Under the pieces are notes generated by a model, which was given only the letters and a program-made list of their open reading frames with translations, was not told the DNA's origin and did not search any database. From Mameliella sp. MMSF_3455 (GTDB taxonomy: Bacteria > Pseudomonadota > Alphaproteobacteria > Rhodobacterales > Rhodobacteraceae), in the NCBI RefSeq assembly GCF_030733205.1, contig NZ_JASHJL010000044.1, positions 1 through 43,535 of the forward strand: DNA of 43,535 bases, in the 5' to 3' direction. The position numbers and the translations under genes are program-made. Below are positions 561-17,406 of this stretch, piece by piece (the stretch's first letter is position 1; each line of letters opens with the position of its first letter).

Positions 561-561
561 A

Positions 562-768: not shown

Positions 769-783
769 TCCTCTGACGAGGAT

Positions 784-803
784 GGGTCGCCCACGGGCGG
801 CCC
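784..803 (+). terminator. Rho-independent-type terminator after the small gene
   Basis: GGGTCGCCC (784-792) pairs with GGGCGGCCC (795-803) through nine pairs including one G-U, with a very short loop, and is followed by TTT. It lies 15 bases after the stop codon of the gene at 562-768. Confidence 0.6.
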
Positions 804-834
804 TTTCCCTGTTCCAGGGAGTGCTGCGCCAGGT

Positions 835-867
835 CCTGGGACCCGGGCCTTCGGCCGGTGTCCCAGG
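835..867. repeat. Inverted repeat in the mob upstream region
   Basis: CCTGGGAC (835-842) and GTCCCAGG (860-867) form a perfect 8-bp stem around a 17-base loop. It is one of four symmetric elements clustered between the small gene and the mob operon. Confidence 0.6.
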
Positions 868-873
868 GAAGGT

Positions 874-895
874 GTCAGGACCGCGCGGTCCTGAC
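874..895. repeat. Perfect 22-bp palindrome
   Basis: Positions 874-895 read identically on both strands, with 11-bp half-sites starting GTCAGGACCGC. Such a site could bind a dimeric protein or extrude as a cruciform. It lies about 430 bases before the mobC-like gene, which is a reasonable place for an oriT or operator element. Confidence 0.65.
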
Positions 896-992
896 GGGGA
901 CATCAGAGATCGCCTGGAACAGGTCTGCCGGCCAGCCTCAAGGGGGCCATCCGGAATAACAGCCGGGCTGCGCCCGCCGGTTTTTCCGGCAG

Positions 993-1012
993 AGATTTGG
1001 GCACCCAAATCT
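993..1012. repeat. Inverted repeat, 9-bp arms
   Basis: AGATTTGGG (993-1001) and CCCAAATCT (1004-1012) are perfect inverted repeats around CA. The arms are AT-richer than the surroundings. Possible oriT or regulator-binding element. Confidence 0.6.
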
Positions 1013-1077
1013 GGCCGCCCTTGACCCTGTCCGTCAGCCCCGTTGGGGGGGGATTATGCACCGCCCCTCGCTTCCGT

Positions 1078-1097
1078 CCGAACACATGCGTGTTCGG
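1078..1097. repeat. Inverted repeat, 8-bp arms
   Basis: CCGAACAC (1078-1085) and GTGTTCGG (1090-1097) form a perfect stem around ATGC. It is the last of the symmetric elements before the mob promoter. Confidence 0.6.
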
Positions 1098-1252
1098 CCC
1101 GAAACTCGGGCGCGGGCATGACAGAAGGGCGATCGGTGGGCAGGTGGAGAGTGTCGGTTTTCCTGGGCCCTTCTGGCCGGGCCTCGCACCTGCGGTGCTC
1201 GGCCTGAAACGGAATTCAAGGTCGCCTGCGGGCAATCTACGATAATATTCCA

Positions 1253-1280
1253 TTGACCGTTATATATAGTTTCGTATGAT
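1253..1280 (+). promoter_or_regulatory. Sigma70-type promoter of the mob operon
   Basis: TTGACC (1253-1258), a 16-base AT-rich spacer and TATGAT (1275-1280) are close to both consensus hexamers and stand out in GC-rich DNA. The predicted start near 1287 gives a roughly 43-base leader to the ATG at 1330. The spacer contains ATATAGTTT, a word also found ahead of the virB operon. Confidence 0.6.
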
Positions 1281-1329
1281 GAGGGCGGCCTTGAATGAAG
1301 GTGGCAGGAAATAGGGAGGCTTTCTTCGC

Positions 1330-1923
1330 ATGAGCCGGACCAAGAGACTGACACAGACGGAGCGGGCGGAGATTGTCCGTGAGGCCGGAGAAGGAGTGGG
1401 GACTTCCGTGCTCGCGGAGCGGTTCGGGGTCACGCCGCGGGCCATCCAGTACACGTTGAAGGCGGACGAAGAACGCCAGAAGGATGCGGCCGTGGCGACC
1501 GCCGCCGTGACGGTGAAGCTGACCCCTGAAGAGCTTGAAGCGCTCGATGAGGTGCTGGCCGCGGCGGGGATCGAGACCCGCACGGAGGGGGTCCGGCGGT
1601 TGATCCAGGCGGCGGGGGGAACCTTCGTTCCGGATGCGCAGCTGGCGGCTGAGATGGCGCGCTACCGGGCCTCCCTGCACGAGGTCGGCAACGGCGTCGT
1701 GCAGATCGCCAAGCAGATGGCCAAGGCCAACCAAATGGGGCAGGGGAGTGAAGGCGATGCAAGCGAAGAGTTGTCCGAATTGCGCCTCGCGCAGATGCGT
1801 GGGCTGGCGCGGTTCATCCTTGATTCCGCTGACGAGATCGACCTGCTACTGCGCCGTCGTCGGGATGCCATGCAGCTATCCGCGACCGCCGCGCTGAGGG
1901 AGTTTGCCCATGCGGCTGAATGA
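1330..1923 (+). CDS. MobC-like mobilization accessory protein
   Basis: A 197-residue DNA-binding protein, probably the relaxosome partner of the relaxase encoded next. Residues about 10-46 form a helix-turn-helix (LAERFGVTPRAIQYTLK). Residues about 60-95 (KLTPEELEALDEVL...GVRRLI) resemble the ribbon-helix-helix part of MobC/VirD1-type proteins, and a long helical region follows. GGGAGG lies about 10 bases before the ATG. The 3' end overlaps the relaxase start by 14 bases, indicating translational coupling. In known systems such proteins bind oriT and help the relaxase reach the nick site. The family is inferred from layout and motifs, not from a database match. Confidence 0.75.
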   Translation: MSRTKRLTQTERAEIVREAGEGVGTSVLAERFGVTPRAIQYTLKADEERQKDAAVATAAVTVKLTPEELEALDEVLAAAGIETRTEGVRRLIQAAGGTFVPDAQLAAEMARYRASLHEVGNGVVQIAKQMAKANQMGQGSEGDASEELSELRLAQMRGLARFILDSADEIDLLLRRRRDAMQLSATAALREFAHAAE

Positions 1924-4237
1924 TGCCGTCCATGACGTCACCGGAGAGATCTTTCGGGATGGTTGGAGCCGCATCCGGGGCTCGATGCAGGGGCTGCAGG
2001 CGTCCCGGCAGAGGCAGCTCGTGCGGACGGCGGCGGGGCATCGTGCGGCGGTCTTCAAGGCGATCCGGGGCGGGGGCACGCATACCAAATCGCAGCTGAT
2101 GAACCAGCTCGATTACCTCACCACGAAGTCCTCCCATATTGTGGATTCCAGCGGCTTCCTGGACGGGAAGACGAAGCTCGAGGGAACGGAGATCAAGGAC
2201 CTGACGGAGCGGTTCGCCAAGCGCTGGAGTGCGGAGTTCAAGCCCAAGCTCGGGCAGACGACGCATATGCTCATGTCCTATCCGATCGGCACTCGGGGCG
2301 AGGACGTGCGCGACATCACCGCCAATGTCGCGGAGCGGTTCTTTCAGTCCGACGAGGGGCATTTCGATTACATCATCGCGGTGCATGAGGACCGGGATCA
2401 CCCGCACGCGCATATAGTTTTGAACCGTCGATCTCAGGAGGGTGAGTTCTTCTTCCTGGGCCGGGATCACCGGTTCAACTACGACGACTTCCGCCTCGCC
2501 ATGGTGGAAGAGGCCGAGAGGTTTGGCGTGCGCCTCGAAGCCACGCGGCGGCTGGATCGGGGCGTTGTGCACTACCCGCCGCGCACCCGCGAGGTCTATG
2601 CGGCCAAGGTTGAGGGGCGGGCCGCGGAACTGCGGCCACGGGTCGGGGCCGATCTGGATCGCGCCCTCGAAGAGATCGCCAATACACGGATCATCTATCA
2701 CTCGCTCGCCGCCGAGGCCTCGGCGGACAATCGTGAGGACATCGCCCAGGCACTGCTCCGCGCCGGGGAGCTTCTCGCGAAGGGCGGCAGACTCGATCTG
2801 GAAGGAGGGGTCTACATGGCCGAGGATCAATCATTCGAGGATCTGCGCACCCGCTATGCCGATCAGGTCGCGCGCGTCCAAGGCATGATCGATGCGAAGC
2901 CGGAGGCCGAACGGCCGAGGCTCGAGCGCAGCCTCAATGAGATCCAGTCCAGGCTGGCCCATATGCAACCCTTGGGGCTGCGCTCCATGACATTGACCGA
3001 GAAGCCCTCGGAGGGCGGGGTCTATTCCGAGACCAATATCGATGCGGCCCGGCTCGACCGCTTGCGGGACCCCGAGGTGCGGGCGCAGGTCGACACCGCG
3101 CTGCGCGGGACCGGGATCAGTTCGTCCGTGGTGATCTCCCGGATGGAGACCGGCGCTCAGAATGCCGCGCTGGAGCGGCAGTGGATCGCGGACGATCTGG
3201 CGCGGGTTGCCGAGAGGGACGGTTTCAACCTCGAGCGTCGCGCCGATCTGGAGACGGCGCGCGAGACCCTCAACCGGGCCCATGTGCAGCTCGGCGTCGC
3301 ACTGGAGCGGGCAGGGGTCCTGCGCGAAGACGGTGTCGTCGAAGATCGCACCGTGACGGAGCGGGTCCATTATCACCGGGAAACCACTGATGCCATGGAG
3401 CGCGCGATCCGCCAGGACATGCGTGCGGAAGGCCTGACCGATCAGCAGATCGAGGCGCGGGAATGGGAGATCGTCTCCAGCGCGGGGCGGTGTATCGAGG
3501 CAGAGCAGCGGAGTTACCTGGATGCGCATCCAGAACTCCTCGCGCGTCCGGGCGACGTGATCGACCGGTCCGAACCCTACAGGGAGCGTATCACCGACGA
3601 GGCCCGGGCCCGTGAGATCACGCGCGAGGTCGACCGGATCATGGACGGGCGAGATACGAGGACGCCCGTTGCGGAGGCGGTCGCGGAGGAGTTCCGAGAT
3701 CGCTATCCCGATATGCCGTCGCATCTCGCCCGCGGGCTTGGTGCGACCTATGCTTCCGTCACCGAGCTGCGCGACTCCGAGGCCATCGACCAGGTCCGCC
3801 GCGAAACCGAGCTCCGAGAGACATGGTTCGACCTGCGCGAGGAACAGCTTTCGGGCGAGCGCGAGGGGGAAGCTGTCGAGGGCGCGCCGATTGCCGATCC
3901 GGACATCCGGCGGGTCGTCGACCATGAACGGGCCGGCAATCTGCATTCGCCGTTCCAGGATGACGGTCAACGTCTGGACTACCGCGACGCGGTCGAGCGC
4001 GAGCTGGACGCGGCGCAAATCGACCGGTTGCAGGACGGGGATGTCGACGTTCTGAAACCCCGGATCGAAGACCGCCTCGACCGGCTCTACGCCGCGAAGA
4101 CCTATCTGCAATCCGACGCGGCGACCGCTAACAGCGAGGCGACCCGCGCCGTGGTCGAGGAGATCGCCGACCGCGAGTTCGAGCTCCACCGCGCCGATCT
4201 GGTGGATGGCGAGAGCGAGCGCGGGGAGACGCACTGA
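1910..4237 (+). CDS. virD2: VirD2-type relaxase (MOBP-like)
   Basis: Conjugative relaxase that would nick oriT, stay bound to the 5' end and be exported with the strand. I chose ATG 1910, with GAGGG about 9 bases upstream, over an in-frame TTG at 1904. The N-terminal 250 residues hold the relaxase domain: the probable catalytic tyrosine in NQLDYLTTK (Tyr69) and the metal-binding histidine motif HEDRDHPHAH (159-168). The remaining 500 residues are charged, helical and probably include the export signal. The gene overlaps mobC by 14 bases and shares a TGATG junction with virD4, so the three genes form one operon. The length of about 775 residues is longer than Agrobacterium VirD2 but usual for large plasmid relaxases. 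Confidence 0.9.
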   Translation: MRLNDAVHDVTGEIFRDGWSRIRGSMQGLQASRQRQLVRTAAGHRAAVFKAIRGGGTHTKSQLMNQLDYLTTKSSHIVDSSGFLDGKTKLEGTEIKDLTERFAKRWSAEFKPKLGQTTHMLMSYPIGTRGEDVRDITANVAERFFQSDEGHFDYIIAVHEDRDHPHAHIVLNRRSQEGEFFFLGRDHRFNYDDFRLAMVEEAERFGVRLEATRRLDRGVVHYPPRTREVYAAKVEGRAAELRPRVGADLDRALEEIANTRIIYHSLAAEASADNREDIAQALLRAGELLAKGGRLDLEGGVYMAEDQSFEDLRTRYADQVARVQGMIDAKPEAERPRLERSLNEIQSRLAHMQPLGLRSMTLTEKPSEGGVYSETNIDAARLDRLRDPEVRAQVDTALRGTGISSSVVISRMETGAQNAALERQWIADDLARVAERDGFNLERRADLETARETLNRAHVQLGVALERAGVLREDGVVEDRTVTERVHYHRETTDAMERAIRQDMRAEGLTDQQIEAREWEIVSSAGRCIEAEQRSYLDAHPELLARPGDVIDRSEPYRERITDEARAREITREVDRIMDGRDTRTPVAEAVAEEFRDRYPDMPSHLARGLGATYASVTELRDSEAIDQVRRETELRETWFDLREEQLSGEREGEAVEGAPIADPDIRRVVDHERAGNLHSPFQDDGQRLDYRDAVERELDAAQIDRLQDGDVDVLKPRIEDRLDRLYAAKTYLQSDAATANSEATRAVVEEIADREFELHRADLVDGESERGETH

Positions 4238-6261
4238 TGGGAGGAGTGGGGACAGGCCGTCTGGCCATCGGTGTGGTGCTGGTCACGCTTGTCGCCGTCG
4301 CGATCGGCTATGTCATCGCCTCGGCGGTGATCACCTTCCGCAATCTGGGATTCCGGGCCGAGATCGATTTCTTCTACATCGCGCAGAACTACCGGGCGAT
4401 CGGGGCCGCCCGTCCCGACGATTTCCGCCTGATTAACCTGATCATGGGCGGCGCAGGGGTGGCGGGCCTCATGATGAGCCTGGCGATGTCCGGTTCGGCC
4501 CTCACCCGGTTCGGCTATACGCATTGGCAGACCCGCCGCGAGATGAAACGGAATGGCTTCTTCGGCGCGCCGGGCACGGGCTTTGTCATCGGCAAGCTGG
4601 GAAAACCCGGATCGCGGGCGCCGTTCCTCTGCTCCCGGACCTTTCCGCATGCGCTGATCGTGGCCCCGACCGGGCGCGGCAAGACCACCGGGTTTGTCAT
4701 CCCAAACCTGCTGACCTGGCAGGGCGCGGCGGTTGTGCTCGACGTGAAGGGCGAATGCTTCGAGGCCTCCGCGCGCCACCGAGCGGCGCAGGGCGACGCG
4801 GTGTTCCGGTTCGCCCCGACCGATTGGGATGACAAGCGCACGCATCGCTACAATCCGCTGTTGAGGATCTTCGAGCTCAAGGACCCGGCGCGCCAGCAGA
4901 TGGAACTGCAGCTCCTGGCCACGCTCTTCCTGCAGAATGACAATGACCGCGTGCAGGGCCTCCTGAAGGGCGGGATCGATCTCTTCGTCGCCGCCGGCCT
5001 CCTGGCCTTCCAGCGCCGCCGACCGACGCTCGGAGAGATTTACCGCATCGCCGCTTCGGGCGGGCAGAAGCAGAAGGAATATCTCGCGCGCGCCCATGAG
5101 GTCCAGAACGCCGCGGCGCGGCTGATCTTCACGCGGCTGGCCTCCACCAACAACGACACGCTGACGTCCTATGTCTCGCTCCTGATGACCTCGGGTCTCG
5201 ACCAGTGGCAGAACCCGGCGATCGACGATGCCACGGCGGTGTCGGATTTCGACTTCCGGACGATCCGCAAGACACCCTTCAGCGTTTATCTCGTCGTCCA
5301 GCCGCTGATGGTGAAACCCCTGGCGCCGCTGATCCGGCTCTTCTTCTCCGATCTCCTCTCCGCGCTCCAGGACAAGGAGCCGGGTCCGGATGAACCTTGG
5401 CCGGTCATGATCATGCTCGACGAGTTCAATCGGCTCGGAAAGATGCCGATCGTGGCCGAGAGCATCGAAGTGCTGCGCGCCTATCGCGGGCATCTGGCGG
5501 TGGTCACCCAGACCATCCCGGCCATCGACGAGATCTACGGCGAGAACACGCGGCGCGCCTTGCAGGGCAACGCCGGGATCAAGCTCTACCTGACGCCTTC
5601 GGACGAGAAGACGGTCGAGGAGCTGAGCAAGGCTGTGGGCAAGACCACGAAGACCGTGGTCACACGCTCCCGCGCGGTCGGCAAGAACCCGTTCGAAGGT
5701 CGCAGCCAGTCTGAGCGGACGGAAGAAGTCGCGCTCCTGCCGGAAGACGAGGCGCGACGTCTGCCGCTTGATGAGATCGTGGTGGTCGTGGACGCGCAGA
5801 TGCCGGTCCGGGCGAAGCGGGTCGTTTACTACGAGGATCCGTTTTTCAAAGGCATCCACGCCGCGCAGGAGGGGGATCTGCCGTTTCCGAAAGGCCCAGT
5901 TCCTCCGATGGGGGAGTTGCCCCTGAGTGTCCGGGCGATGCCTTCGGCTCCGCGTGGGTCAGGTCTCACGGAACGCGATTTTGAGGCCAGGATGGGTCTT
6001 ACGGAAGCTGGTGAAAACTTGGCCGTCAATGACGCACCTGCTGCAGCGTCCCGGCCTCTCCGCGCTGCTATCCTCGCGGACGAACAGCGGCAGATGGAGA
6101 TGGATTTCGGAAGGCAGGAGGCACTCAAGCTCGATGATCCGAACGAGCGGGACAAGGAACAGATTGAGCGGGCACTCAGCGATCTAGAGCGATTGGAAGG
6201 GGAAATGAAGAGTTCGGCGAAACCTGTTGGAGAGGCTCGCGAGAAACTCGAGGCCGGTTAA
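4237..6261 (+). CDS. virD4: VirD4/TraG-type coupling protein
   Basis: Inner-membrane ATPase that docks the relaxase-DNA complex onto the VirB channel. Two N-terminal membrane segments (about 8-32 and 65-88) precede the nucleotide-binding domain. Walker A is VAPTGRGKT (142-150) and Walker B is MIMLDEF (391-397). The middle of the protein, with an all-alpha-type insertion, matches TraG/VirD4 organisation. The C-terminal 100 residues are charged and probably form a helical, substrate-recognising tail. It starts one base inside the relaxase stop codon (TGATG), so the two are translationally coupled. At 674 residues it is normal for the family. Its presence with virD2 and a full virB operon indicates a self-transmissible element. 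Confidence 0.93.
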   Translation: MGGVGTGRLAIGVVLVTLVAVAIGYVIASAVITFRNLGFRAEIDFFYIAQNYRAIGAARPDDFRLINLIMGGAGVAGLMMSLAMSGSALTRFGYTHWQTRREMKRNGFFGAPGTGFVIGKLGKPGSRAPFLCSRTFPHALIVAPTGRGKTTGFVIPNLLTWQGAAVVLDVKGECFEASARHRAAQGDAVFRFAPTDWDDKRTHRYNPLLRIFELKDPARQQMELQLLATLFLQNDNDRVQGLLKGGIDLFVAAGLLAFQRRRPTLGEIYRIAASGGQKQKEYLARAHEVQNAAARLIFTRLASTNNDTLTSYVSLLMTSGLDQWQNPAIDDATAVSDFDFRTIRKTPFSVYLVVQPLMVKPLAPLIRLFFSDLLSALQDKEPGPDEPWPVMIMLDEFNRLGKMPIVAESIEVLRAYRGHLAVVTQTIPAIDEIYGENTRRALQGNAGIKLYLTPSDEKTVEELSKAVGKTTKTVVTRSRAVGKNPFEGRSQSERTEEVALLPEDEARRLPLDEIVVVVDAQMPVRAKRVVYYEDPFFKGIHAAQEGDLPFPKGPVPPMGELPLSVRAMPSAPRGSGLTERDFEARMGLTEAGENLAVNDAPAAASRPLRAAILADEQRQMEMDFGRQEALKLDDPNERDKEQIERALSDLERLEGEMKSSAKPVGEAREKLEAG

Positions 6262-6343
6262 GCCAATAATCGACTTGAGTGTAGAGAAAGGCAGAGGCAA
6301 GCTCAAACTGACCCAGACGTACAGAGGCAATTTTGCACCTGCA

Positions 6344-6366
6344 GCGAGCGAAACACAGTCGCTCGC
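6344..6366. repeat. Hairpin downstream of virD4
   Basis: GCGAGCG (6344-6350) and CGCTCGC (6360-6366) form a perfect 7-bp stem with a 9-base loop, about 80 bases after the virD4 stop. No T-run follows, so it may stabilise the mRNA end rather than terminate transcription. Confidence 0.35.
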
Positions 6367-6502
6367 GGCCCTTGGACGAAGCCGCTCCGCGGCATTGGCG
6401 CGGGTTGCTGGTTTTCAGCGATGACCTGACACTGGTGCATTTGGGAAACGGCATTTCTGCCTGACGATTGAGGCCTTCTCAATCGAAAGACAGCAGGTTC
6501 CC

Positions 6503-6820
6503 GTGACAGGGGAGAGGTCGACCCCGCTTCGAAAGCGGATGATCGAGGACATGCGCATCCGCGGGCTGGGCGACAAGGCGCAGAACGCGCCTATCCGGGC
6601 AATCAAGGATTTTGGCATTTTCCTCGGGCACCCGCCGGATACCGCCACACCGGAGGAACTCCGCGCCTATCAAATGCACATGACTGATACGGGGGTAACG
6701 CCGGGGACTTTCAATGCCCGGGTCGTGGCGCTCAGGTTCTTCTTCGGCATGACCTGCGGCCGCGAGGAGATGAAACGCTACATGCAGTTCCGCACCCAGC
6801 CTAGGTGGAATCGCAGATAA
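6503..6820 (+). pseudogene. Tyrosine recombinase, N-terminal stump only
   Basis: About 105 residues from a GTG start match the SAM-like core-binding domain of a tyrosine recombinase of the IS91-associated or XerD-like kind (KRMIEDMRIRGLGDK..., then FNARVVALRFFFG, CGREEMKRYMQF). The frame stops at 6818-6820, just after the QFRTQPR stretch where the catalytic domain should begin. The R-H-R-Y catalytic residues are therefore absent and the protein cannot recombine DNA. The break lies within about 25 bases of a tRNA 3' fragment (6829-6878), so the truncation and the tRNA piece probably mark the same old junction. Confidence 0.75.
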
Positions 6821-6828
6821 ATGTGAAA

Positions 6829-6878
6829 TGGTGCACCCGATAGGACTCGAACCTATGACCTCTGCCTTCGGAGGGCTG
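6829..6878 (-). tRNA. tRNA-Arg(CCG) 3' half, partial (likely att remnant)
   Basis: Read on the minus strand, this is the 3' half of a tRNA. It contains an anticodon arm (6862-6878) with loop CTCCGAA and anticodon CCG, a variable loop, a perfect T arm (6840-6856, TTCGAGT loop), acceptor 3' strand CGGGTGC (6833-6839), discriminator A and an encoded CCA (6829-6831). The anticodon stem has one mismatch. The D arm and acceptor 5' strand are missing, so it is not a functional gene. Exactly this portion, anticodon loop to CCA, is what tRNA-targeting integrases duplicate, so it is probably an attachment-site copy. Confidence 0.8.
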
Positions 6879-6946
6879 GATGTCGATTTTGAACAGAGAA
6901 CAATCAAACAGCGGCCAGGTAAATCGGGAGGACAGTTCGGTCGAAC

Positions 6947-7654
6947 CTACCCAATTCGGGGGCGCTCCGGGTTCGTCTGGACTTTGGGGAGGCTGAAGAG
7001 CGCGATGAAGTCTCGGCACTGAGCAGCATCGCCGAAGACTTCCACGCCTGCAGCCTCTGGTGCCACATCCCCGTAGAAGACAGCCGCCAGGGGCGGTGCG
7101 GCAGGGGCATCGAAACGCAGGTCTGGCAACTCCGCCGCGCCGCGTTCCACCGGCATCGCGCCGTCATTCAGTCGTGCGGTGAATTGCGCCCTCCCGATCG
7201 TGAAGACCGCGACTGCGAAAATCCCGCGTGCGGCCTCCGTATCCAGCATCGTGCGCAAAGACAGCATGAAGGAGACCGGGGAAAGTGGCAACGTGGGGTC
7301 GTGCAATGGAGAAGCGGCGGCCCAGCGACCAATTGCCTCGAGAATCGGCTCAGCGGAGTATCCCCAGTCCGTCAGGCCATAGAGCTGCGCTGGAGCCGGT
7401 TCCGGCGCCTCGGAGCGAAGAACGACACCATTCGCCTCCAGCCCAGAGAGCCGCTCGGTCAGGACCTTGGCGCTGATACCCGGCAGGCTCGCCCGTATGT
7501 CGCTGAACCGGCGCGGCCCGAACATGAGCTCTCGGACGATCAGCATCGCCCAGCGTTCCCCCAGAAGTTCCAGGCCGAAGGCCGTGCCGCAGGCATCCGC
7601 GTACCAACGCCCATGGGGGGATTCCGCCGATGAGGTTACTTTTTGTTTTCTCAT
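6947..7654 (-). CDS. HxlR-family transcriptional regulator
   Basis: A 235-residue regulator with an N-terminal winged-helix HxlR domain (about 15-115: CGTAFGLELLGERWAMLIVRE, then RRFSDIRASLPGISAKVLTERL) and a C-terminal half that resembles the SCP2-like extension found in many actinobacterial and proteobacterial members. Cys22 sits at the usual HxlR redox-sensitive position. I chose ATG 7654 because the upstream frame overlaps a direct repeat that looks like an operator. It is divergent from the VOC/GST operon starting at 7716 with about 60 bases between, so it probably controls that operon and itself. The effector is unknown; in this family it is often an electrophile or quinone. Confidence 0.85.
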   Translation of the reverse strand: MRKQKVTSSAESPHGRWYADACGTAFGLELLGERWAMLIVRELMFGPRRFSDIRASLPGISAKVLTERLSGLEANGVVLRSEAPEPAPAQLYGLTDWGYSAEPILEAIGRWAAASPLHDPTLPLSPVSFMLSLRTMLDTEAARGIFAVAVFTIGRAQFTARLNDGAMPVERGAAELPDLRFDAPAAPPLAAVFYGDVAPEAAGVEVFGDAAQCRDFIALFSLPKVQTNPERPRIG

Positions 7655-7667
7655 GGTTGCTTTTTGT
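7634..7667. promoter_or_regulatory. Direct repeat, probable HxlR operator
   Basis: GGTTACTTTTTGT (7634-7646) is repeated as GGTTGCTTTTTGT (7655-7667), with one difference in 13 and a 21-bp period (two helix turns). It covers the start codon of the regulator and the divergent promoter region, which fits negative autoregulation plus control of the rightward operon. Confidence 0.5.
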
Positions 7668-7715
7668 AACTCTATGCTCTTACGGTGTCCATAATTACGA
7701 TACGGCAAGGGAGGG

Positions 7716-8156
7716 ATGGCAATGCCCCAAATGATCTTCGTGAACCTACCGGTGGCCGACCTCGAACGGTCGACCGCATTTTACGAAGCCATCGGCTTCA
7801 CCAGGGATGCCAGGTTCAGCAATAACCTTGCAGCGTCCATGGTCCTGTCCGACGCGATATGCGTCATGCTGCTGACGCATGATTTCTGGGCGACCTTCAC
7901 GGATCGCCGTCGTGTCGACCCGGCGCGGGAGGCGCAGGTGCTTCTTTGCATTAGCCGCGAGGACAAGGCTGCCGTTGATGCCATTACTGAGGCTGCGGTC
8001 GCTGCCGGTGGTATGGCCGACCCTTGCCCGGTGCAGGACCACGGCTTCATGTATGGACGTAGTTTTGCGGATCCCGATGGCCATATCTGGGAACCCATGT
8101 GGATGAGTGCCGAGGCCGCCGAGAAGGGCCCGGCGGAGGTGTCCGATGCCGGTTGA
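7716..8156 (+). CDS. VOC-family (glyoxalase-like) protein
   Basis: A 146-residue protein of the vicinal-oxygen-chelate fold with two beta-alpha-beta-beta-beta halves: IFVNLPVADLERSTAFYEAIGF at the N-terminus and DPDGHIWEPMWM at the C-terminus, where Glu of WEPMW is a likely metal ligand. GGGAGG precedes the ATG; a second in-frame ATG lies at 7722. Relatives are annotated as glyoxalase or lactoylglutathione lyase-like, but the substrate cannot be read from sequence. It is first in a tightly packed operon with two glutathione transferase genes, which points to glutathione-linked conversion of a reactive compound. It overlaps the next gene by 11 bases. Confidence 0.85.
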   Translation: MAMPQMIFVNLPVADLERSTAFYEAIGFTRDARFSNNLAASMVLSDAICVMLLTHDFWATFTDRRRVDPAREAQVLLCISREDKAAVDAITEAAVAAGGMADPCPVQDHGFMYGRSFADPDGHIWEPMWMSAEAAEKGPAEVSDAG

Positions 8157-8865
8157 TCCCGATGCCGCCATCACCATTACCGCCTACGACTGGGTGCCGG
8201 ACTTTGCCCAAGGGCAGGTCCGCGATCTGCGAGTACGCTGGGTACTTGAGGAAACGGGCCAGAACTACGCCGTGCGATATCTCTCGCAAGGGCAACAGAA
8301 GGAAGCGGCGCACTGCGCGCTGCAACCGTTCGGCCAGGTTCCGACCTACGAGGAGGGTGACCTCACGCTGTTCGAAAGCGGGGCGATCGTCTGGCATATC
8401 GCAGAGCGGTTCCCCGGTCTGCGGCCGACAGAGCCAGCGGGGCAGAGCTTGTCGCTGGAATGGCTGTTTGCCGCGCTGAACACTTTGGAGCCACCGATCA
8501 TGGACCGGGCACAGATGACGATCTTCGAAGTGGCCGAGCCCTGGGCCAAGCTGCGACTTCCCGGCATTGACGAGCGGATTAACGAACGCCTGCAGGAGGC
8601 GTCTGATCGCCTCGGCACCGCGGAGACGTTCGGCGGCAGTTTCTCCGCCGGCGACCTGATGATGGTCAGCGTTCTGCGGATCATCGAGGGCGAGGGTCTC
8701 GTCGAAGCCTTCCCCAACCTCGCCGACTATGTCGCGCGGGCCACCGAACGGCCGGCCTTCCAGCGGGCCCTGTCCGATCAGCTTGCCGGCTTCACGGGCA
8801 ATCCGCCGCCCGGTTTCGACGAATGGATGGCGGAGCTTAAAGCGAAACAAGGAGAACTCGCATGA
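8146..8865 (+). CDS. Glutathione S-transferase family protein (copy 1)
   Basis: A 239-residue cytosolic GST. The thioredoxin-like N-domain (about 8-90) includes the cis-proline in QVPTY and the glutathione-binding LFESGAI motif; an all-helical C-domain follows. ATG 8146 is preferred over GTG 8107 because the upstream extension is arginine-rich and overlaps the VOC gene. It overlaps the previous gene by 11 bases and the next by 4 (ATGA). It is clearly paralogous to the GST at 9220: both start ...FDWVP/YDWVP and share RDLRxRW, QPFGQVP and LFESGA. The two probably arose by duplication with a DUF1428 gene between them. Confidence 0.88.
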   Translation: MPVDPDAAITITAYDWVPDFAQGQVRDLRVRWVLEETGQNYAVRYLSQGQQKEAAHCALQPFGQVPTYEEGDLTLFESGAIVWHIAERFPGLRPTEPAGQSLSLEWLFAALNTLEPPIMDRAQMTIFEVAEPWAKLRLPGIDERINERLQEASDRLGTAETFGGSFSAGDLMMVSVLRIIEGEGLVEAFPNLADYVARATERPAFQRALSDQLAGFTGNPPPGFDEWMAELKAKQGELA

Positions 8866-9215
8866 CCTACGTTGCTGGATTTCTGACCCCAGTGCCGAAC
8901 GGGAACAAGCAGGCCTACATCGAAAGTGCCCGCAAGGCTTGGCCGCTCTTCAAGGAATATGGGGCCCTGCAAATCATGGAGGCCTGGGGCGACCAAGTTC
9001 CCGCGGGCGAGCACACCGATTTCAGGCGGGCCGTCGCGTTGGAAGACGGCGAGACGGTTTGTTTCTCGTGGATGATCTGGCCCGACAAGGAAAGCCACGA
9101 CAGGTGTGGCGCCAGCATGGCAACCGATCCGCGCTGGCAGGAGATGGACATGCCCTTCGATGGCAAGCGCATGATGTGGGGCAGCTTCACGCCGATCTTC
9201 GAAGACAAGGCTTGA
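8862..9215 (+). CDS. DUF1428-family protein
   Basis: A 117-residue protein matching the DUF1428 pattern throughout: YVAGFLTPVPNGNKQAY near the start, then KEYGALQIMEAWGDQVP, DFRRAV, FSWMIWPDKE, and MPFDGKRMMWGSF at the end. This is an alpha/beta-barrel-dimer-like fold of unknown activity. Start and stop overlap or abut its neighbours (ATGA with the upstream GST; 4 bases to the downstream GST), so it is co-translated with them. The context suggests a role in the same detoxification or catabolic step. Confidence 0.88.
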   Translation: MTYVAGFLTPVPNGNKQAYIESARKAWPLFKEYGALQIMEAWGDQVPAGEHTDFRRAVALEDGETVCFSWMIWPDKESHDRCGASMATDPRWQEMDMPFDGKRMMWGSFTPIFEDKA

Positions 9216-9219
9216 CGCC

Positions 9220-9873
9220 ATGAACCAGACGGCACCAGAGCAGCTGACGATCTGGACCTTCGACTGGGTGCCGGAGGGGCCGCGGGGCTATGTGCGTGAC
9301 CTGCGGCTTCGCTGGGCCTGTGAAGAGGCCGGGCTGAGCTATCGCGTCGGCTCCGTGCCCTTCGAGGAACGCGGGGCCGAGCATCTTGCCATGCAGCCCT
9401 TCGGGCAGGTGCCTTACCTGACGGATGGGGATGTCAGCCTGTTCGAAAGCGGCGCCTGCCTGCTGCACCTCTCGGAGAAGAGCGTAGCGCTCATGCCGCG
9501 GGAGAGGGCACTGCGGGCGGAAACCTTGTCCTGGGTCCTCGCGGCCCTGAACTCGGTCGAGATGGTCAGCGTGCCCTGGTGGTTCGTCGGACTGTCGTCC
9601 CCGCCGGAGAACCCCTTGGAGGGCTGGCTGCGGGCCCGTCTTGCTGTGCTGGAAGACGTCCTGACAGCGCGCGACTGGCTGGTGGATGGTCGCTTTACCG
9701 CGGCGGATCTGATCCTGGCCGACGTGTTGCGTCCGCCCTGGATACGGGGGATCGGCCACTATCCCGCAACCGATGCCTACATTGATCGGATTTGCGCGCG
9801 GCCGGCCTTTGCCAAGGCACATGCGGACCAGATCGCGCATTTCTCCAGGGCCGACGAGACCCGCGAGGCATGA
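9220..9873 (+). CDS. Glutathione S-transferase family protein (copy 2)
   Basis: A 217-residue GST with an N-terminal thioredoxin-like domain (QPFGQVPYL cis-proline loop, LFESGACLLH glutathione site) and a helical C-domain (FTAADLILADVL). It is paralogous to the GST at 8146 but diverged in the substrate-binding C-domain (WWFVGL insertion), so the two probably act on different substrates or as a heterodimer. It is in the same operon, 4 bases after the DUF1428 gene. Confidence 0.88.
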   Translation: MNQTAPEQLTIWTFDWVPEGPRGYVRDLRLRWACEEAGLSYRVGSVPFEERGAEHLAMQPFGQVPYLTDGDVSLFESGACLLHLSEKSVALMPRERALRAETLSWVLAALNSVEMVSVPWWFVGLSSPPENPLEGWLRARLAVLEDVLTARDWLVDGRFTAADLILADVLRPPWIRGIGHYPATDAYIDRICARPAFAKAHADQIAHFSRADETREA

Positions 9874-9956
9874 CCGGCGGCTTGCCGTTCCCAGGGAAAG
9901 ACCACAACGCATGGGAGGAAGAAATGATGACACCGACTTCGACTTCACGGTCCTGA

Positions 9957-10811
9957 ATGGGGGCCCTGCAGGCCTCGGTCCTTGTCGGAGCGATGGCTAC
10001 GCCCGCGCTGGCGCAGGACACCGAGGGCCGGGCCATGTCCGGGGACCTCGGGATCTATTATCAGGTACACGGCGATCTCGGCTCCGGCATGGTGCCATTT
10101 CTCGTGCTCCATGGGGGCATGGGCACCATCGAAGGGGATTTCGGTGCCCTCTTGCCGGGCCTCGCCGCAAGGCGCCCGGTGATCGGGGTGGAACAGCAGG
10201 GCCATGGGCGCACGGGCGGACGTGATATGCCGGTCACCCTCGCAGCAATGCGGACCGACACCCTGGCCGTGCTGGACGCGCTCGACATCGAGCGGGTTCA
10301 CGCGGTGGGCTTTTCCATGGGCGGCATGCTGGCACTGGACCTGGCATTGGCCGCGCCCGAGCGGCTGGCCACGCTCACTGCGATCTCGGTCAGCCAGAAC
10401 CTGGACGGGATGCATCCGGCCATCGCGGACATGAACCGGAACCCACAGGCCACGCCTTCACCGGAGGCGCTGGAGCTGGTGCCGAGCGAAGAGGACTTTG
10501 CCCGCATGCAGGCGGGTTTCGCCCACAACCCGGATGGCCCGGAGCAGTTCCAGCGCACCTTTGCGCAGCTGCAGGCCTTCATGGTCACCGATTGGGGCTG
10601 GAGCGACGAGGAGCTTGCCACGCTCGCGGTGCCGACCCTGCTCGCCCTCGGCGACAGTGACTTCACGCCGGTCGGCCATGGTGCACGCATGGCGACCCTT
10701 TCGGGGGCCCAGCTGGCGGTTTTGCCGGACACCACGCACTTTTCGATCATGAGCCGCCCCGAATGGCTGCTGCCCCTGATCGAGCACCGTATCACCACGG
10801 CCGAAGATTGA
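9957..10811 (+). CDS. Exported alpha/beta hydrolase; in-frame TGA ahead of its start
   Basis: A 284-residue hydrolase. An N-terminal signal sequence ends ATPALAQ, so the enzyme should be periplasmic. The fold carries an oxyanion HGGMG motif, the nucleophile elbow GFSMGG, an acid in LGDSDF and the catalytic His in DTTHFS. The start at 9957 has no ribosome site. A well-placed GGAGGAAG precedes ATG 9924, which is in the same frame but meets TGA at 9954-9956 directly before ATG 9957. The gene thus looks as if it originally began at 9924 and acquired a stop. Re-initiation at the adjacent ATG could still give an exported enzyme. The substrate is unknown. Confidence 0.8.
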   Translation: MGALQASVLVGAMATPALAQDTEGRAMSGDLGIYYQVHGDLGSGMVPFLVLHGGMGTIEGDFGALLPGLAARRPVIGVEQQGHGRTGGRDMPVTLAAMRTDTLAVLDALDIERVHAVGFSMGGMLALDLALAAPERLATLTAISVSQNLDGMHPAIADMNRNPQATPSPEALELVPSEEDFARMQAGFAHNPDGPEQFQRTFAQLQAFMVTDWGWSDEELATLAVPTLLALGDSDFTPVGHGARMATLSGAQLAVLPDTTHFSIMSRPEWLLPLIEHRITTAED

Positions 10812-10843
10812 GAGCGCGGCCTCAATCGCAAAGGAGACATACG

Positions 10844-11338
10844 ATGACAAAGCGAAAAGCTGCGGTATTTCTCTGGTTCGACACCGAGGCCGAAGCGGCG
10901 GCCGAGTTCTATGCCGCAACCTTTCCAGGCAGCCATGTGGACCAGGTGATCCGGTTTCCCGGCGATACGCCAAGCGGGCCCGCCGGCAGCGTTCAAGTCG
11001 TGGAGATGACACTGATGGGGCTGCCCTACGCGTTGCTCAATGCCGGCCCGCATGTACAACCCAACGATGCCTACTCGCTCCAAGTCTACACCGAGGATCA
11101 AGCGGAGACAGACAGGCTATGGGATGCGATCGTCGGAAATGGCGGCGAAGAAATCATGTGCGGCTGGAGCAAGGACCGCTGGGGCTTTCGTTGGCAGATC
11201 ACGCCACGAGTCCTGATGGACGCACTGTCGCACCCCGACGCCGCCGCCTCGACCCGCGCACAGACTGCCATGATGGAAATGCGGAAGATCGACATTGCGG
11301 TGATAGAGGCCGCCTTGCGCGGCGAGCCGCAAACGTGA
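10844..11338 (+). CDS. VOC-family PhnB-like protein
   Basis: A 164-residue protein of the PhnB / '3-demethylubiquinone methyltransferase-like' VOC type. It has AAVFLWFDTEAEAAAEFYAATF at the start, GLPYALLNAGP in the middle, and CGWSKDRWGFRWQITP, the usual signature, near the end. AAGGAG precedes ATG 10844. It is last in the six-gene cluster and separated by 32 bases from the hydrolase. These proteins are often annotated as methyltransferases, but VOC folds more often do lyase, isomerase or resistance roles; no substrate can be assigned. Confidence 0.87.
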   Translation: MTKRKAAVFLWFDTEAEAAAEFYAATFPGSHVDQVIRFPGDTPSGPAGSVQVVEMTLMGLPYALLNAGPHVQPNDAYSLQVYTEDQAETDRLWDAIVGNGGEEIMCGWSKDRWGFRWQITPRVLMDALSHPDAAASTRAQTAMMEMRKIDIAVIEAALRGEPQT

Positions 11339-11520
11339 CTGTGGACCCGACGGAGATCATCGGGAGAGCATGTGCCGGGAGATTGGATCATCCGTCTTCA
11401 ATTGCCAACTGGGCCTCGGAGATGCAGCGGGACTATGATCCGGGCGCTGATGCGCTCTGGGGCACATGGACGGATTGAGTGCGATCAGCGATCGCGGCGG
11501 ACTATACCGAAATCGTTGCC

Positions 11521-11691
11521 TTATTTGGGCAAGCCGGAGTTTGGATCGCATGGCGGGCCGACTTCATTGTCGATCAGCTTTTCAGCCTCCTTCAAGGCTT
11601 CCACACTAGCGGGATAAAAGTTGTATTCTGCGAAGGCGCGCAGATCATGCAGAACCTCGATCATCCAGGTCGGATCGGGCGTGTCGCTCAT
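11521..11691 (-). CDS. Small hypothetical protein (56 aa)
   Basis: A minus-strand frame from ATG 11691 to TAA 11521-11523 encodes MSDTPDPTWMIEVLHDLRAF... and ends GLPK. It has an amphipathic helical core (EALKEAEKLIDNEV) and balanced, GC-rich codon use. The ribosome site is weak. I do not recognise the family. It lies in a decayed stretch between the VOC operon and the cyclo-ligase gene, so it could be a surviving small gene or a fragment. Confidence 0.4.
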   Translation of the reverse strand: MSDTPDPTWMIEVLHDLRAFAEYNFYPASVEALKEAEKLIDNEVGPPCDPNSGLPK

Positions 11692-11801
11692 CGTCAGGTT
11701 TCTCAGAGGGATTGCAGTTAAGAAAAGATAGTGTCAGACCAATCTTATAGCCAGAAGGTTGACTGATGGCGCCTCGGCATAAAGACGCCGGAATCCGTTT
11801 C

Positions 11802-11918
11802 CTAAACATAACGGTGGACCAGTTCAGAAAGGGCATTCCAGGCCCGCCAGGTGTGATGTCCGACGCCGCGTTCATTGCGGCAGGCATTGACGAAGGCGGT
11901 GTGGTCGAGATGGCGCAT
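11802..11918 (-). CDS. Tiny hypothetical ORF (38 aa)
   Basis: The minus-strand ATG at 11918 opens a frame (MRHLDHTAFVNACRNERGV...), rich in His, Arg and Trp, ending in TAG 11802-11804. The composition looks protein-like, but there is no ribosome site and no family match. It may be the end of a larger decayed gene. Confidence 0.25.
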   Translation of the reverse strand: MRHLDHTAFVNACRNERGVGHHTWRAWNALSELVHRYV

Positions 11919-11979
11919 GCTGAGTTCCTGGAATGGTATTCCGCCAGTTTAGCATGGGTCTTTTAGCCTTTCGAAATTG

Positions 11980-12145
11980 CACGCGCGAGCGGTCATGATA
12001 ACGGCCCGCCTTATCGCGACCGGCGCAGACGAAAAACTTCCGCCGATGATGGCCAAACGGGCATACGAATGCTGTTCAGGTGCTCGAATACGGCAAGATC
12101 GTCGGAATTGTTAACCGGTCCGACCTGGGAGCGATGCGTGCAGGA
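11980..12145 (+). pseudogene. Decayed CBS-domain fragment, frameshifted
   Basis: One frame reads HARAVMITARLIATGADEKL and the next frame continues VQVLEYGKIVGIVNRSDL. Joined, they give the typical opening and closing segments of a CBS domain (V-M-T...L-I...D-E-x-L, then V-x-E-x-G-K-I-V-G-I-V-x-R-S-D-L). A frameshift around 12050-12070 and the missing middle show it is a remnant. The assignment rests on pattern memory only. Confidence 0.35.
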
Positions 12146-12173
12146 AGCGGCTGTCCGGGTTGCCGGTTGCGGC

Positions 12174-12881
12174 TCAGGCCACCTCTCTGTCGGCTTGGAT
12201 CCCGTTCTCGGTCACGATGAGATCGAGCGGGATGTCATGTGCCTGCGGATAGATGGTGGAGAGCCATGCCTCTTGCAAACCGATACCGATGACAAAGGGC
12301 TTCGGGGTCAACGCCGCTAAGGTGCGGTCGAAGTATCCTCCGCCGTAGCCGAGGCGATACCCTTCCGCCGTCCAGCCGACAAGGGGAGCCAGTGCAATGC
12401 CGGGGGTGACCTTGGCTGCGCGCGCTGGCGGGACCGGAATGTTCCAGTCGCCGCGCACCATGCGGGTTTCGGGTGTCCAGCGACGGAATGTGAGGGGAGC
12501 CGCTTTGGTTTCGACCAGAGGTAGGGCGACGGTCACGCCCGCCCCGTGAAGCTCGACCATCAGCGGGCGCAGGTCTGGCTCTCCCTTGATCGGCCAATAG
12601 CCGGAAAAGACTATGCCTCGCGTCCCGCCGAAACGGTCTTCCAACACCTGCCGCAGATGCACGGCCAGCGCCTCGCCGATCTTCTTGCGTTCGGTAACCG
12701 ACAGACTCAGACGCGCGGCACGCAGGCGGCTGCGTTGAGCCTGGCGCCAGCGGGCCACATCGCGTTCTTGATCGGGGTCGACCGCCAGCGGGTCAAAATA
12801 ATCCGGTGCAATCTCGGCCGCATAGCAGGGCGGTGAGGAAAACCCACTTTGACAGCGGAAGCTCTTGAACTCGTCGCTCAT
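12174..12881 (-). CDS. 5-formyltetrahydrofolate cyclo-ligase
   Basis: A 235-residue cytosolic enzyme converting 5-formyl-THF plus ATP to 5,10-methenyl-THF. Diagnostic motifs are the substrate/ATP-binding basic stretch near the N-terminus, YWPIKGEPDLRPL, and GYRLGYGGGYFDRTL, the family signature, with LxxTxxG-type residues before the C-terminus. The N-terminal 45 residues (cysteine-containing, MSDEFKSFRC...) are an extension ahead of the usual RWRQAQR start. It is normally a single core gene, so this copy inside conjugative cargo may be an extra one. It stands alone, with no operon partner. Confidence 0.9.
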   Translation of the reverse strand: MSDEFKSFRCQSGFSSPPCYAAEIAPDYFDPLAVDPDQERDVARWRQAQRSRLRAARLSLSVTERKKIGEALAVHLRQVLEDRFGGTRGIVFSGYWPIKGEPDLRPLMVELHGAGVTVALPLVETKAAPLTFRRWTPETRMVRGDWNIPVPPARAAKVTPGIALAPLVGWTAEGYRLGYGGGYFDRTLAALTPKPFVIGIGLQEAWLSTIYPQAHDIPLDLIVTENGIQADREVA

Positions 12882-13381
12882 GACCGTGCCTTGGCGTCGT
12901 TTCGAACCGAGCCCTGCAGGCTATGTGCCGGGCTTGCGTGATCATAGCGTTGAAATGCACCGCGGCGCACGGGGTATCTTCGAGCGCCCCCGCGTCCCGA
13001 CCGGCATAGAGTGCCATTGCTTCCTGGTTTCCGTTCGCGGGGCGCGTCCTTGCTGAAGAGCCCATTCAAGACATCAGTGCTGGCGCGGCAAAGCAGTTCT
13101 CGGATCAAAGTCTTGCTATTTCTTGCCTTGAGCGTTCTCGAGAGGACGGCGAAGTCGTGCGAAAAGGGAGAGAACGGCGTTGATGATGAACTTTGATTGC
13201 TGGCGACGACCGAATGCGCAATCCGACTCGATCTGGCGTAGGTCAGGCTGTTGACAGTGTGAGGCCGACATCTGCTTGCTCCTTCGAAGATAGGGATATC
13301 GTGCCTTTGCCGGTGGGCCATTGCTTGAAGAGCGCAGCCAGATTTTCTTGAGAAATTTTTGACTTTCTCGGATGGCCCGCC
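12882..13381. other. Non-coding or decayed stretch
   Basis: I see no intact gene in these 500 bases. Minus-strand frames around 12900-13030 and 13060-13250 have protein-like patches broken by stops, suggesting relics. The last 40 bases are AT-rich and include an inverted repeat (13350-13355 with 13364-13369). Confidence 0.4.
13350..13369. promoter_or_regulatory. Inverted repeat before the winged-helix/hydrolase gene
   Basis: GAGAAA (13350-13355) and TTTCTC (13364-13369), separated by 8 bases in an AT-rich patch 13 bases before the ATG. A possible autoregulatory site for the winged-helix protein; no direct evidence. Confidence 0.3.
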
Positions 13382-14996: not shown

Positions 14997-15695
14997 TTAG
15001 GTTGAGATCGCGTAGACCGATCCGTCGCCCAGGTCCTTGAACATGTCGATCTTCGCGCCGTCCCAATGATAGGTGATGTGACGTCCTTGCACAGGGGCGG
15101 AGACAACATCCGGATGAAAAGCAGCGAAACAAATGCCGCCAGGATTGCGGACGGACGGATAGACGATACCGTTCGCGCCATCGGCTCGCCGCTCTCGAGC
15201 AAAGGTCTGTGAGCGCCCGTAATCGAGTGGGTCGAGCAGGTCGTCAAACCCTGTACTGACATCGGTGAGGACGGCGTCGAGCTTGCCGATCAGCTCGCGC
15301 TTGTCCGCGATCCATCCCGGAGCTTCTTCGGTCGCGGCACAAAACAGCTGGGTGTGATGGACGGTCTCGAAGAGCGCCGTTTCGAAACCGTCCGCCCCAT
15401 AGAATGCGCCAAAGGTGCCGTCGTGGAACCGCCCTTGATGATCTGGGGTCACATGTACGAATGGTGCCATCAGATAGGACGCCCCCGGTCCTCCGACGCG
15501 GCGCTCTTCCGGGACGAGATCCAGATTTCCAATCGTTTGCGCAAGTCTGGGGTTGGTCTTGCTTTCCCCCGAGCCGAGGAGCAACCAGTCCGCCGGGTCC
15601 GCGATGTCTTCGAATAGATCGATTGGTGGGTGGGCAGAGTTTATCAGGCGATAGTACCTGTCCCAGGTGACCCTGATCTCGGGCGCTGTCACCAT
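14997..15695 (-). CDS. RES-domain toxin (NAD-degrading type)
   Basis: A 232-residue protein with the RES fold: WDRYYRLINSAHPPIDLFEDIADPADW at the start, GRFHDGTFGAFYGADGFETALFETVHH in the middle (conserved Arg/Tyr/Glu of the RES name), and YPSVRNPGGICFAAF near the end. Characterised RES toxins of Xre-RES modules deplete NAD by phosphorolysis or hydrolysis and arrest growth. It starts 7 bases inside the antitoxin gene (overlap 15689-15695), so the pair is translationally coupled with the antitoxin first, the normal order for this family. Role here: stabilising the mobile element or phage defence (inference). Confidence 0.9.
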   Translation of the reverse strand: MVTAPEIRVTWDRYYRLINSAHPPIDLFEDIADPADWLLLGSGESKTNPRLAQTIGNLDLVPEERRVGGPGASYLMAPFVHVTPDHQGRFHDGTFGAFYGADGFETALFETVHHTQLFCAATEEAPGWIADKRELIGKLDAVLTDVSTGFDDLLDPLDYGRSQTFARERRADGANGIVYPSVRNPGGICFAAFHPDVVSAPVQGRHITYHWDGAKIDMFKDLGDGSVYAIST

Positions 15696-16102
15696 GGCCC
15701 CCGCATTGCGTCGAGGTAACGCCTGACCCGCATGATGTCGGTGATCTGACCGCCGAGCATGACGTCCAGAGCCGTCGCGCCACCGAATGCAGTATTGGGC
15801 CGCTTGATCCAGCCATAGCCTCGTGCCAGATCCTTGAAGAGCAGCCGAAGCGCCTTGTGGATCCCCATGATGTTCGACAGACGCGCGGCCGTATCGATCC
15901 CGGCCCGGCCAAGCTCACCGGCTTTCCAGCGTCGGAACGTCCGCATGGAAATGTCGCCCATCAGAACGGCAGCCTGCTCGTCGGTCAGCCCCCAAAGCTC
16001 GGCGAGCCTGATGAACGCGCGCTGCATGGCCTGAACCTCCTCGTCGGAGAAACGAGGTGCGGGCGCGGCGGCGTGCGGTTCGATCCGTCTGAGTTCAGGC
16101 AT
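15689..16102 (-). CDS. Xre/MbcA/ParS-family antitoxin
   Basis: A 137-residue antitoxin with an N-terminal Xre-like helix-turn-helix (DEEVQAMQRAFIRLAELWGLTDEQAAVLMGDISMRTFRRWK) and a C-terminal toxin-binding DUF2384-type domain (LLFKDLARGYGWIKRPNTAFGGATALDVML). I chose ATG 16102 because GGAGG lies 5 bases upstream; the GTG at 16114 has no such site. The C-terminal Trp tail enters the RES active site in known complexes; here the protein ends GPW. The promoter at 16130-16157 should be repressed by the complex. Confidence 0.9.
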   Translation of the reverse strand: MPELRRIEPHAAAPAPRFSDEEVQAMQRAFIRLAELWGLTDEQAAVLMGDISMRTFRRWKAGELGRAGIDTAARLSNIMGIHKALRLLFKDLARGYGWIKRPNTAFGGATALDVMLGGQITDIMRVRRYLDAMRGPW

Positions 16103-16129
16103 TTTCGCCTCCACCTGGCATTTGGCATC

Positions 16130-16320: not shown

Positions 16321-17400
16321 TTATCGCCTTCCCAACCTGTTCAGACGGGCCAACTGCGCCATCAATTTTGCGCCTGTATCGGACGGGCCTGATCCAGGAG
16401 AAACAGGTGTGTTTCGGCTGACACCTGGTCTCTGTGGCATCGTCTGCACTCCGAAGAACTGCCGTGCGCGAAGCGCTGCGTACTCCACCCCACTCGCTCC
16501 ACCAATAAGGTACCGGTTGTAGGCCTGCTGGCTACCGCCAAGCGCTCTGCCAAAACCGTAGGCACTACCCATCCCTGCCGAGAGCGCAGGCATCATGATG
16601 TTTCCTGAAATGGCTCTCACGATGAAGGGCGTCGCGATGATGAACCCCTTGGCCATGAGTACCATCATGAAGAACGGGATGAGGGCCCCGATGTTGGACG
16701 AGCCCTCAGGATCTCCAAGCTCTCCGATCAGTGCGGAACTGACGCCTGTGATCGTCGCGAAAACACCCGCAACGACGATCGGATAGAGCGCGAAGGAGAC
16801 CAGCGCCGAGAGCCAGCGCGCGAAGTAGTCCTTGGTCACCTCAAAAAGGGTGAGGAAAATCATCACCGGCGCGATGCCGATCAGGAGTGCGATCATCAGC
16901 CGGGATGCTACGAGAATGAAGGCAGCAAGCCCACCCAATATCGAAAGCAGCAGAACGCCCAGAACGTCAAGCAACGCCCCGGCCATCCAGTTCAGTTCCG
17001 AGCCGGCCGCGTTCAGGTATTCGCCAAGCTCGGCGATCAGCCGGTCGAATTCCTCGGCGAAGGTGCCACTAGGTCCCGGCGTTCCGCCGCCGACTGACGC
17101 GACCAGCGACCCTGCGATGCTGTCGATGCCGTTCAGGACAGCGGAGGAGAAGGTGTTAAACTGCACCCAATTTGTTGCGAACACCCCTATGAGTCCGACT
17201 TTCACCGCGAGCCAGAAGGCGGTTCGGCCATCCATGGCGCGGTACTGGTAGATCATGTTGAGGCAGACCAGAATGACCACAAGCGTCGTTCCGAGAACCA
17301 GCATAGTGCCGACTGTCGCCGCTACCGCGCCGAACTGTGTCTCTGCGGCAGAATCCAGGTAGCCCTGGGAGGTCTCGACGAAGTAGGTGACGACGCTCAT
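16321..17400 (-). CDS. virB6: VirB6/TrbL-type inner-membrane channel protein
   Basis: A 359-residue polytopic protein. Hydrophobic segments lie near residues 25-55, 65-80, 145-165, 170-195, 200-225 and 240-270, with a periplasmic loop around 85-140 as in VirB6. The C-terminal tail (about 300-359) is polar and Pro/Gly-rich. VirB6 is part of the inner-membrane stalk and arches through which DNA passes. It lies at the far downstream end of the virB operon, after virB11, rather than between virB5 and virB8 as in Agrobacterium; an 11-codon-rich gap of only 6 bases separates it from the upstream small gene. Confidence 0.88.
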   Translation of the reverse strand: MSVVTYFVETSQGYLDSAAETQFGAVAATVGTMLVLGTTLVVILVCLNMIYQYRAMDGRTAFWLAVKVGLIGVFATNWVQFNTFSSAVLNGIDSIAGSLVASVGGGTPGPSGTFAEEFDRLIAELGEYLNAAGSELNWMAGALLDVLGVLLLSILGGLAAFILVASRLMIALLIGIAPVMIFLTLFEVTKDYFARWLSALVSFALYPIVVAGVFATITGVSSALIGELGDPEGSSNIGALIPFFMMVLMAKGFIIATPFIVRAISGNIMMPALSAGMGSAYGFGRALGGSQQAYNRYLIGGASGVEYAALRARQFFGVQTMPQRPGVSRNTPVSPGSGPSDTGAKLMAQLARLNRLGRR

Positions 17401-17406
17401 GAGCCG

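Follow-up and report, generated by a model that had tools for sequence, protein, structure and literature searches.

A tRNA-Arg(CCG) 3' half on a Mameliella plasmid: a probable attachment-site scar beside an unrelated IS91 remnant

The window, i.e., the whole stretch of DNA that was analysed, is the entire contig C51 of 43,535 bases; the host genome comprises 5.71 Mb in 111 contigs. Between the plasmid transfer genes traG and virB6 it carries the 3' half of a tRNA gene, a recombinase stump on one side and a gene cluster with glutathione S-transferase (GST) and VOC genes, here called the cargo, on the other:
4237..6261, plus strand: TraG/VirD4 coupling protein, bordering the variable spot on the left (plasmid comparison)
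6374..6805, plus strand: IS91-family element, left end, broken off within the accessory tyrosine-recombinase gene (homology)
6806..6828, no strand: 23-base spacer from the IS91 break to the half, putative deletion junction in this plasmid lineage
6819..6828, minus strand: 10 bases 3' of CCA, like the 3' flank of roseobacter tRNA-Arg genes (shuffle test)
6829..6876, minus strand: tRNA-Arg(CCG) 3' half, 48 bases from tRNA nt 30 to CCA, probably a displaced, att-type fragment
6877..6970, no strand: 94 bases from the half to the edge of the cargo homology (plasmid search)
6971..11369, no strand: extent of the cargo homology (plasmid and genome comparison)
6947-7708, minus strand: HxlR-type regulator (cargo)
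7716-8156, plus strand: VOC (cargo)
8107-8865, plus strand: first GST (cargo)
8862-9215, plus strand: DUF1428 (cargo)
9220-9873, plus strand: second GST (cargo)
9957-10811, plus strand: alpha/beta hydrolase (cargo)
10763-11338, plus strand: PF06983/VOC (cargo)
14997..16114, minus strand: RES/Xre toxin-antitoxin pair, on the virB6 side also in pKUB257 and pTPRO5
16321..17400, minus strand: VirB6-type protein of a type IV secretion system (T4SS), right border of the variable spot (plasmid comparison)

A first-pass annotation had placed a tRNA-Arg(CCG) 3' half at 6829..6878, which holds for 6829-6876; the final two bases, 6877-6878, lie outside the half. The half spans the anticodon loop CTCCGAA, the variable region, the T arm and the acceptor 3' strand with CCA. 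Its identity was confirmed by alignment to the intact tRNA-Arg(CCG) of the host on contig C68, a gene also called by ARAGORN (88 % over 58 bases, 10 of them in the 3' flank; E 3.7e-14). The absence of a D arm was likewise confirmed: the 29 bases 5' of the half match a tRNA 5' half at 2 of 29 positions, and ARAGORN called no tRNA in the 43.5-kb contig. With up to 3 mismatches, the 22-base T-arm piece was matched in none of 100 shuffles and the 17-base anticodon-arm piece, an exact match in the real sequence, in 20 of 100, so that this piece alone proves nothing. Folding of the half alone was no better than that of shuffles (z 0.36). Rfam returned no family at the gathering threshold; two families obtained at an E-value threshold (E 0.03) lay far below their cut-offs and were rejected.

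The first-pass annotation had proposed a search for the intact host gene and for a second, identical block. The intact gene on C68 is the only other match in the host genome and is not identical, sharing 43 of the 48 bases; no identical block was present elsewhere in the host genome or in genome_contigs, the latter thus holding no exact donor of the 48 bases. Neither an exact donor of the 3' part of the half with its flank (database search) nor a degenerate version of the block (viral_contigs) was found. The T stem of the half, ATAGG/CCTAT, is fully paired, while the host gene has AAAGG/CCTTT, one pair being altered on both sides. Because of this compensated change the half was not copied from the present host gene, and it derives from the tRNA of another lineage. 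As expected of a tRNA, the block was matched in 354 of 394 genomes in a family-wide search; the best of the fetched family loci shared 46 of 48 bases with the half. Phage records gave four matches (E 2e-11 to 5e-6); two carry a tRNA-Arg annotation, and none extends past the edge of the half.

The truncated recombinase had been tied to the half in the first reading, at a distance of about 8 bases. This distance applies to the gap between the stop of the stump ORF and the half (6821-6828); the recombinase homology ends already at 6805, about 23 bases away. The stump ORF 6503-6820 contains only the N-terminal integrase domain PF13495, and its last codons are non-homologous. From about 6368 to 6808 the window has about 91 % DNA identity to an element in plasmids of Leisingera sp. 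M527 (the end is 6808 by the longest blastn match and 6805 by comparison with the sister plasmid pKUB257). The Leisingera unit, about 2.57 kb long, encodes an intact recombinase (PF13495 and PF00589) and, behind it, an IS91-family transposase (PF04986, PF14319); it is found at three sites with common ends. The left start, at about 6368-6374, is common to the three Leisingera copies, pKUB257 and the window. Of the features of IS91, the window copy has the conserved left terminus and the accessory tyrosine-recombinase gene, of which the first 101 residues are kept (88 % amino acid identity to Leisingera). Unlike the Leisingera element it lacks the catalytic domain of the recombinase, the Y2_Tnp (HUH) transposase and the right end; the latter two are largely kept in pKUB257. 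Host contig C80 carries a copy at 76 %. Judged by homology, the recombinase stump is an IS91 left end and unrelated to the half, and the proposed tie between them was not upheld; in pKUB257 the IS copy lies 3.3 kb from the half. Using six candidates from the halves or intact tRNAs of relatives, tblastn detected no tRNA-type integrase in the window (best E 0.28) and no remnant of the half's integrase right of 6877; the stump (6503-6805) was matched by the IS91 recombinase alone. IS91 one-ended transfer takes along DNA on its other side. With this directionality in mind, one-ended transposition was considered as the carrier of the cargo and set aside.

The plasmid pKUB257 of Mameliella alba KU6B (NZ_AP022338.1) shares the transfer genes, the half, the cargo and the IS91 left junction with the window. 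It matches window positions 136-6445 at 88 %, lacks about 180 bases and matches 6626-6805 again at 97 %. Further IS91 pieces follow (to about 16723 of L058), then about 3.3 kb in which a SEL1 gene and a fragment resembling a transposase were read from the sequence, and then the half. Half and cargo (6830-13060) match at 95.5 %, and 14871-22871 at 94.8 % to the end of the fetched stretch. In contrast to the window, pKUB257 keeps most of the IS91 element, lacking about 180 bases and portions of the element's right half, and its shared cargo is 8.3 kb from the RES/Xre side instead of 1.8 kb. Since half and cargo are colinear in both plasmids, they were joined before the two parted. The contact between stump and half would result from a later deletion in the lineage of the window. 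ORF 13382-14578, with a Trans_reg_C domain (response-regulator-type DNA-binding) and an alpha/beta hydrolase domain, falls in a stretch without counterpart in pKUB257.

Five related plasmids (Salipiger profundus pTPRO5, Sagittula P11, Sagittula MA-2, Marinovum pMaD1 and Marinibacterium pLA6_004) agree with the window on the relaxase-TraG side and on the VirB6 side, with different or scant content in between. A comparison with relatives free of the cargo had been suggested; in the fetched stretches of these five neither half nor cargo is present at the spot. These alignments mark the interval from traG to virB6 as a variable spot in the plasmid family. It starts inside traG, since the homology ends at 6116-6118 in four of the five plasmids (at 6206 in one); the last 145 bases or so of the gene (6118-6261) differ from most sister plasmids. 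Farther along the window, 36449-42107 holds a cluster of the nitric-oxide reductase type with genes for a cytochrome c (NorC-like), a COX1 family protein (NorB-like), CbbQ/NorQ, a VWA protein (NorD-like) and NnrU, the Nor names being our own reading.

The cargo is not confined to these plasmids. In G002, a genome of another genus, 6971-11369 has a counterpart of 88 % identity on a 621-kb contig, located between FliF-like and GyrB/RecF-like ORFs (by eye from translations); because of these neighbours the copy is read as chromosomal. No tRNA was present in the 18 kb fetched from G002, where the best match to the half was 25/48. A 77 % version of the cargo occurs in pieces in G282. In the window 94 bases separate the half from the edge of the cargo, and 70 from the stop of the HxlR gene. 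The first-pass view of the cargo as a tRNA-borne island is in agreement with the colinearity of half and cargo in the two plasmids, while the G002 cargo has neither tRNA nor half in the stretch fetched; an arrival in this manner is possible.

Among relatives, tRNA-Arg(CCG) is a repeated island target in this family. In G271 an intact tRNA-Arg adjoins a PF00589 integrase gene, and a half of 48 bases identical to the 3' part of that intact gene lies about 14.8 kb away. Two genomes belong to the genus of the window. In G394 about 22 kb separate the intact tRNA from the half, which has a PF00589 integrase at a distance of 71 bases. In G383 such an integrase is 92 bases away from the half, and a different contig bears the intact tRNA, which contains the same 48 bases. 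In G151 the half has a PF00589 integrase at 163 bases and an intact tRNA at 45 kb; half and intact tRNA differ in sequence and thus may not be the two ends of one island. G061 has a shortened integrase ORF without catalytic domain 127 bases from the half. In G311 half and intact tRNA, with the same 48 bases, are on separate contigs; no integrase was recognised near the half in the ORF list, and the ORF beside the intact tRNA has no Pfam match. In four family genomes the distance from the half to the start of the integrase ORF is 71-163 bases, and an integrase lies just 5' of the half in 4/6 family halves; the window has the HxlR gene there instead, and the cargo may have replaced an integrase beside the half. 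From the orientation of the tRNA the element had been expected to the right of the half, and this is the arrangement of the real islands: in five family cases where integrase or island shows the direction, the element lies 5' of the half. Two further observations were made at these loci. An ORF of G151 (L067:9702-11339), which by eye resembles a serine recombinase, overlaps the tRNA-Arg half at 9752-9799 on the opposite strand to the tRNA. In G394 the intact tRNA-Arg (L090:1854-1930) has the stem ATAGG/CCTAT and the displaced half (L091:7822-7869) the hybrid ATAGG/CCTTT, which possibly marks the place of a strand exchange or repair.

Halves also recur on plasmids. A plasmid search matched 35 records, pKUB257 among them; eight others were fetched, of which four hold halves and four complete tRNA-Arg(CCG) genes. 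The four halves (L076, L077, L079, L082) come from other alphaproteobacterial genera, Mesorhizobium, Bradyrhizobium, Sphingomonas and Phyllobacterium, and have nearly the same edge. No integrase was found among the genes annotated within 2.5 kb of them, and four genes without annotated function near these halves have no integrase domain. The half in the window begins at tRNA nt 30 in the anticodon stem, as does the copy in pKUB257, and the ten other halves (six from the family genomes G311, G061, G151, G271, G394 and G383, four from the plasmids) begin at nt 24-32. Under random truncation an edge inside this 9-nt band of the 77-nt tRNA has a chance of about 0.12. An integrase gene is adjacent or within the island in 5 of the 10 other halves. 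The ATAGG T stem (5' side) occurs in four of the six family halves, in three of them fully paired.

The sequences bordering the half were compared as well. The 10 bases 3' of CCA match the flanks of 30 intact places at a mean of 5.6/10, a value reached by 2 of 5000 shuffles, although most of these places were chosen by a score that included the flank (a biased set) and G221 was counted twice. The following 13 bases have no likeness, 2553 of 5000 shuffles reaching the observed value. The tRNA end with the exact flank occurs in two of 294 other genomes, behind tRNA-Arg(CCG) in G221 and tRNA-Arg(ACG) in G206; the permuted flank was found in none of 295 genomes. In pKUB257 the homology with the window stops at the CC of CCA, and the left flank is different. 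The flank would weakly favour a chromosome-side junction over an attP core. On the other side of the half, the searched part of the 94-base stretch (to 6950) matched only pKUB257 among plasmids; 6877..6970 is possibly a remnant of the att arm of the element.

We consider it probable that the half is an att-type scar of a tyrosine-integrase element, that the scar was subsequently carried onto a plasmid and that the integrase gene was lost. This reading draws on the half and its edge, the foreign T stem, the colinearity of half and cargo, the absence from five relatives and the identity of the IS91 stump. The target would have been the tRNA-Arg(CCG) gene of a different roseobacter, used by an element of the tyrosine-integrase kind. 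Through strand exchange at the anticodon stem-loop the 3' fragment would have been displaced, giving a junction in the chromosome and not an attP core. A piece spanning the scar may then have reached a conjugative plasmid, where it entered the variable spot bounded by traG and virB6. The integrase gene of the element would then have been lost, and a later deletion would have brought the IS91 stump next to the half. The scar is probably inactive now. Against this reading stand an incomplete island signature, the chance of about 0.12 for such an edge, a flank match of only 10 bases, the occurrence of one of the two exact flanks behind tRNA-Arg(ACG), the failure of the searches to yield an identical donor, the HxlR gene in the place where four of six family halves have an integrase, and the differing sequences of half and intact tRNA in G151.

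The kind of fragment is already known. For tRNA-integrated genomic islands the Islander database lists 3' fragments in 3760 of 3919 islands and anticodon-centred sites in 2083 (PMC4383910), and the half belongs to the anticodon-centred class. It shares with these displaced tDNA fragments the 3' end of the gene, an edge in the anticodon region at an att subsite and an element side located 5' (PMC4383910). It differs from them in its location on a plasmid and in not matching the host's own tRNA exactly; in addition, ARAGORN detected no intact cognate tRNA within the 43.5-kb contig, and tblastn of the window with the six candidates no tyrosine integrase. The IntA/attA system of R. etli was examined as a precedent and rejected, its 23-base att site (PMC4928290) having no resemblance by eye.

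Alternatively, the plasmid may have carried an attP core, i.e., the tRNA 3' half of a plasmid or element attachment site, instead of a displaced chromosomal fragment. The nearly identical edge on the four plasmids would fit, and in G394 the hybrid half could have arisen through remodelling of the tRNA by an ATAGG half borne on the element. However, variation of the T stem is found within the genus in any case, no integrase was found in the window and the 3' flank looks chromosomal over its 10 bases, which makes an attP core unlikely. A plasmid-borne tRNA-Arg(CCG) gene that lost its 5' half by cargo insertion or deletion is very improbable: complete genes do occur on four of the eight fetched records filed as plasmids, but the edge falls in the att band, and the fetched stretches of the five sister plasmids contain no match to the block. 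Hardly credible is a stump that is the half's own integrase, the pair being the fossil attachment site of an island that brought the GST/VOC cargo; the stump adjoins the half and matches the phage-integrase N-terminal domain, and the cargo lies on the element side, colinear in pKUB257, yet the own-integrase part is already contradicted by the intact relative of the stump in Leisingera (90.7 % DNA identity), which precedes an IS91 transposase in a unit that recurs at three sites with shared ends, and by the IS copy of pKUB257 ending 3.3 kb from the half, while the cargo exists in another genus without half or tRNA nearby.

A wider idea, that the tRNA-Arg(CCG) halves on alphaproteobacterial plasmids form a recurring class of live attachment cores, serving as landing or launching sites, is quite improbable. 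If it were true, chromosomal tRNA-Arg integrases acting in trans would move cargo between chromosomal islands and conjugative plasmids, and the traG-virB6 spot would be one such port. For the preferred reading, a scar carried onto the plasmid, the locus cautions against trusting adjacency: the tRNA scar lies 8 bases from the recombinase stump, and the two have separate origins, which only the sister plasmid reveals. The tRNA-Arg(CCG) halves on plasmids may trace a traffic from chromosome to plasmid.
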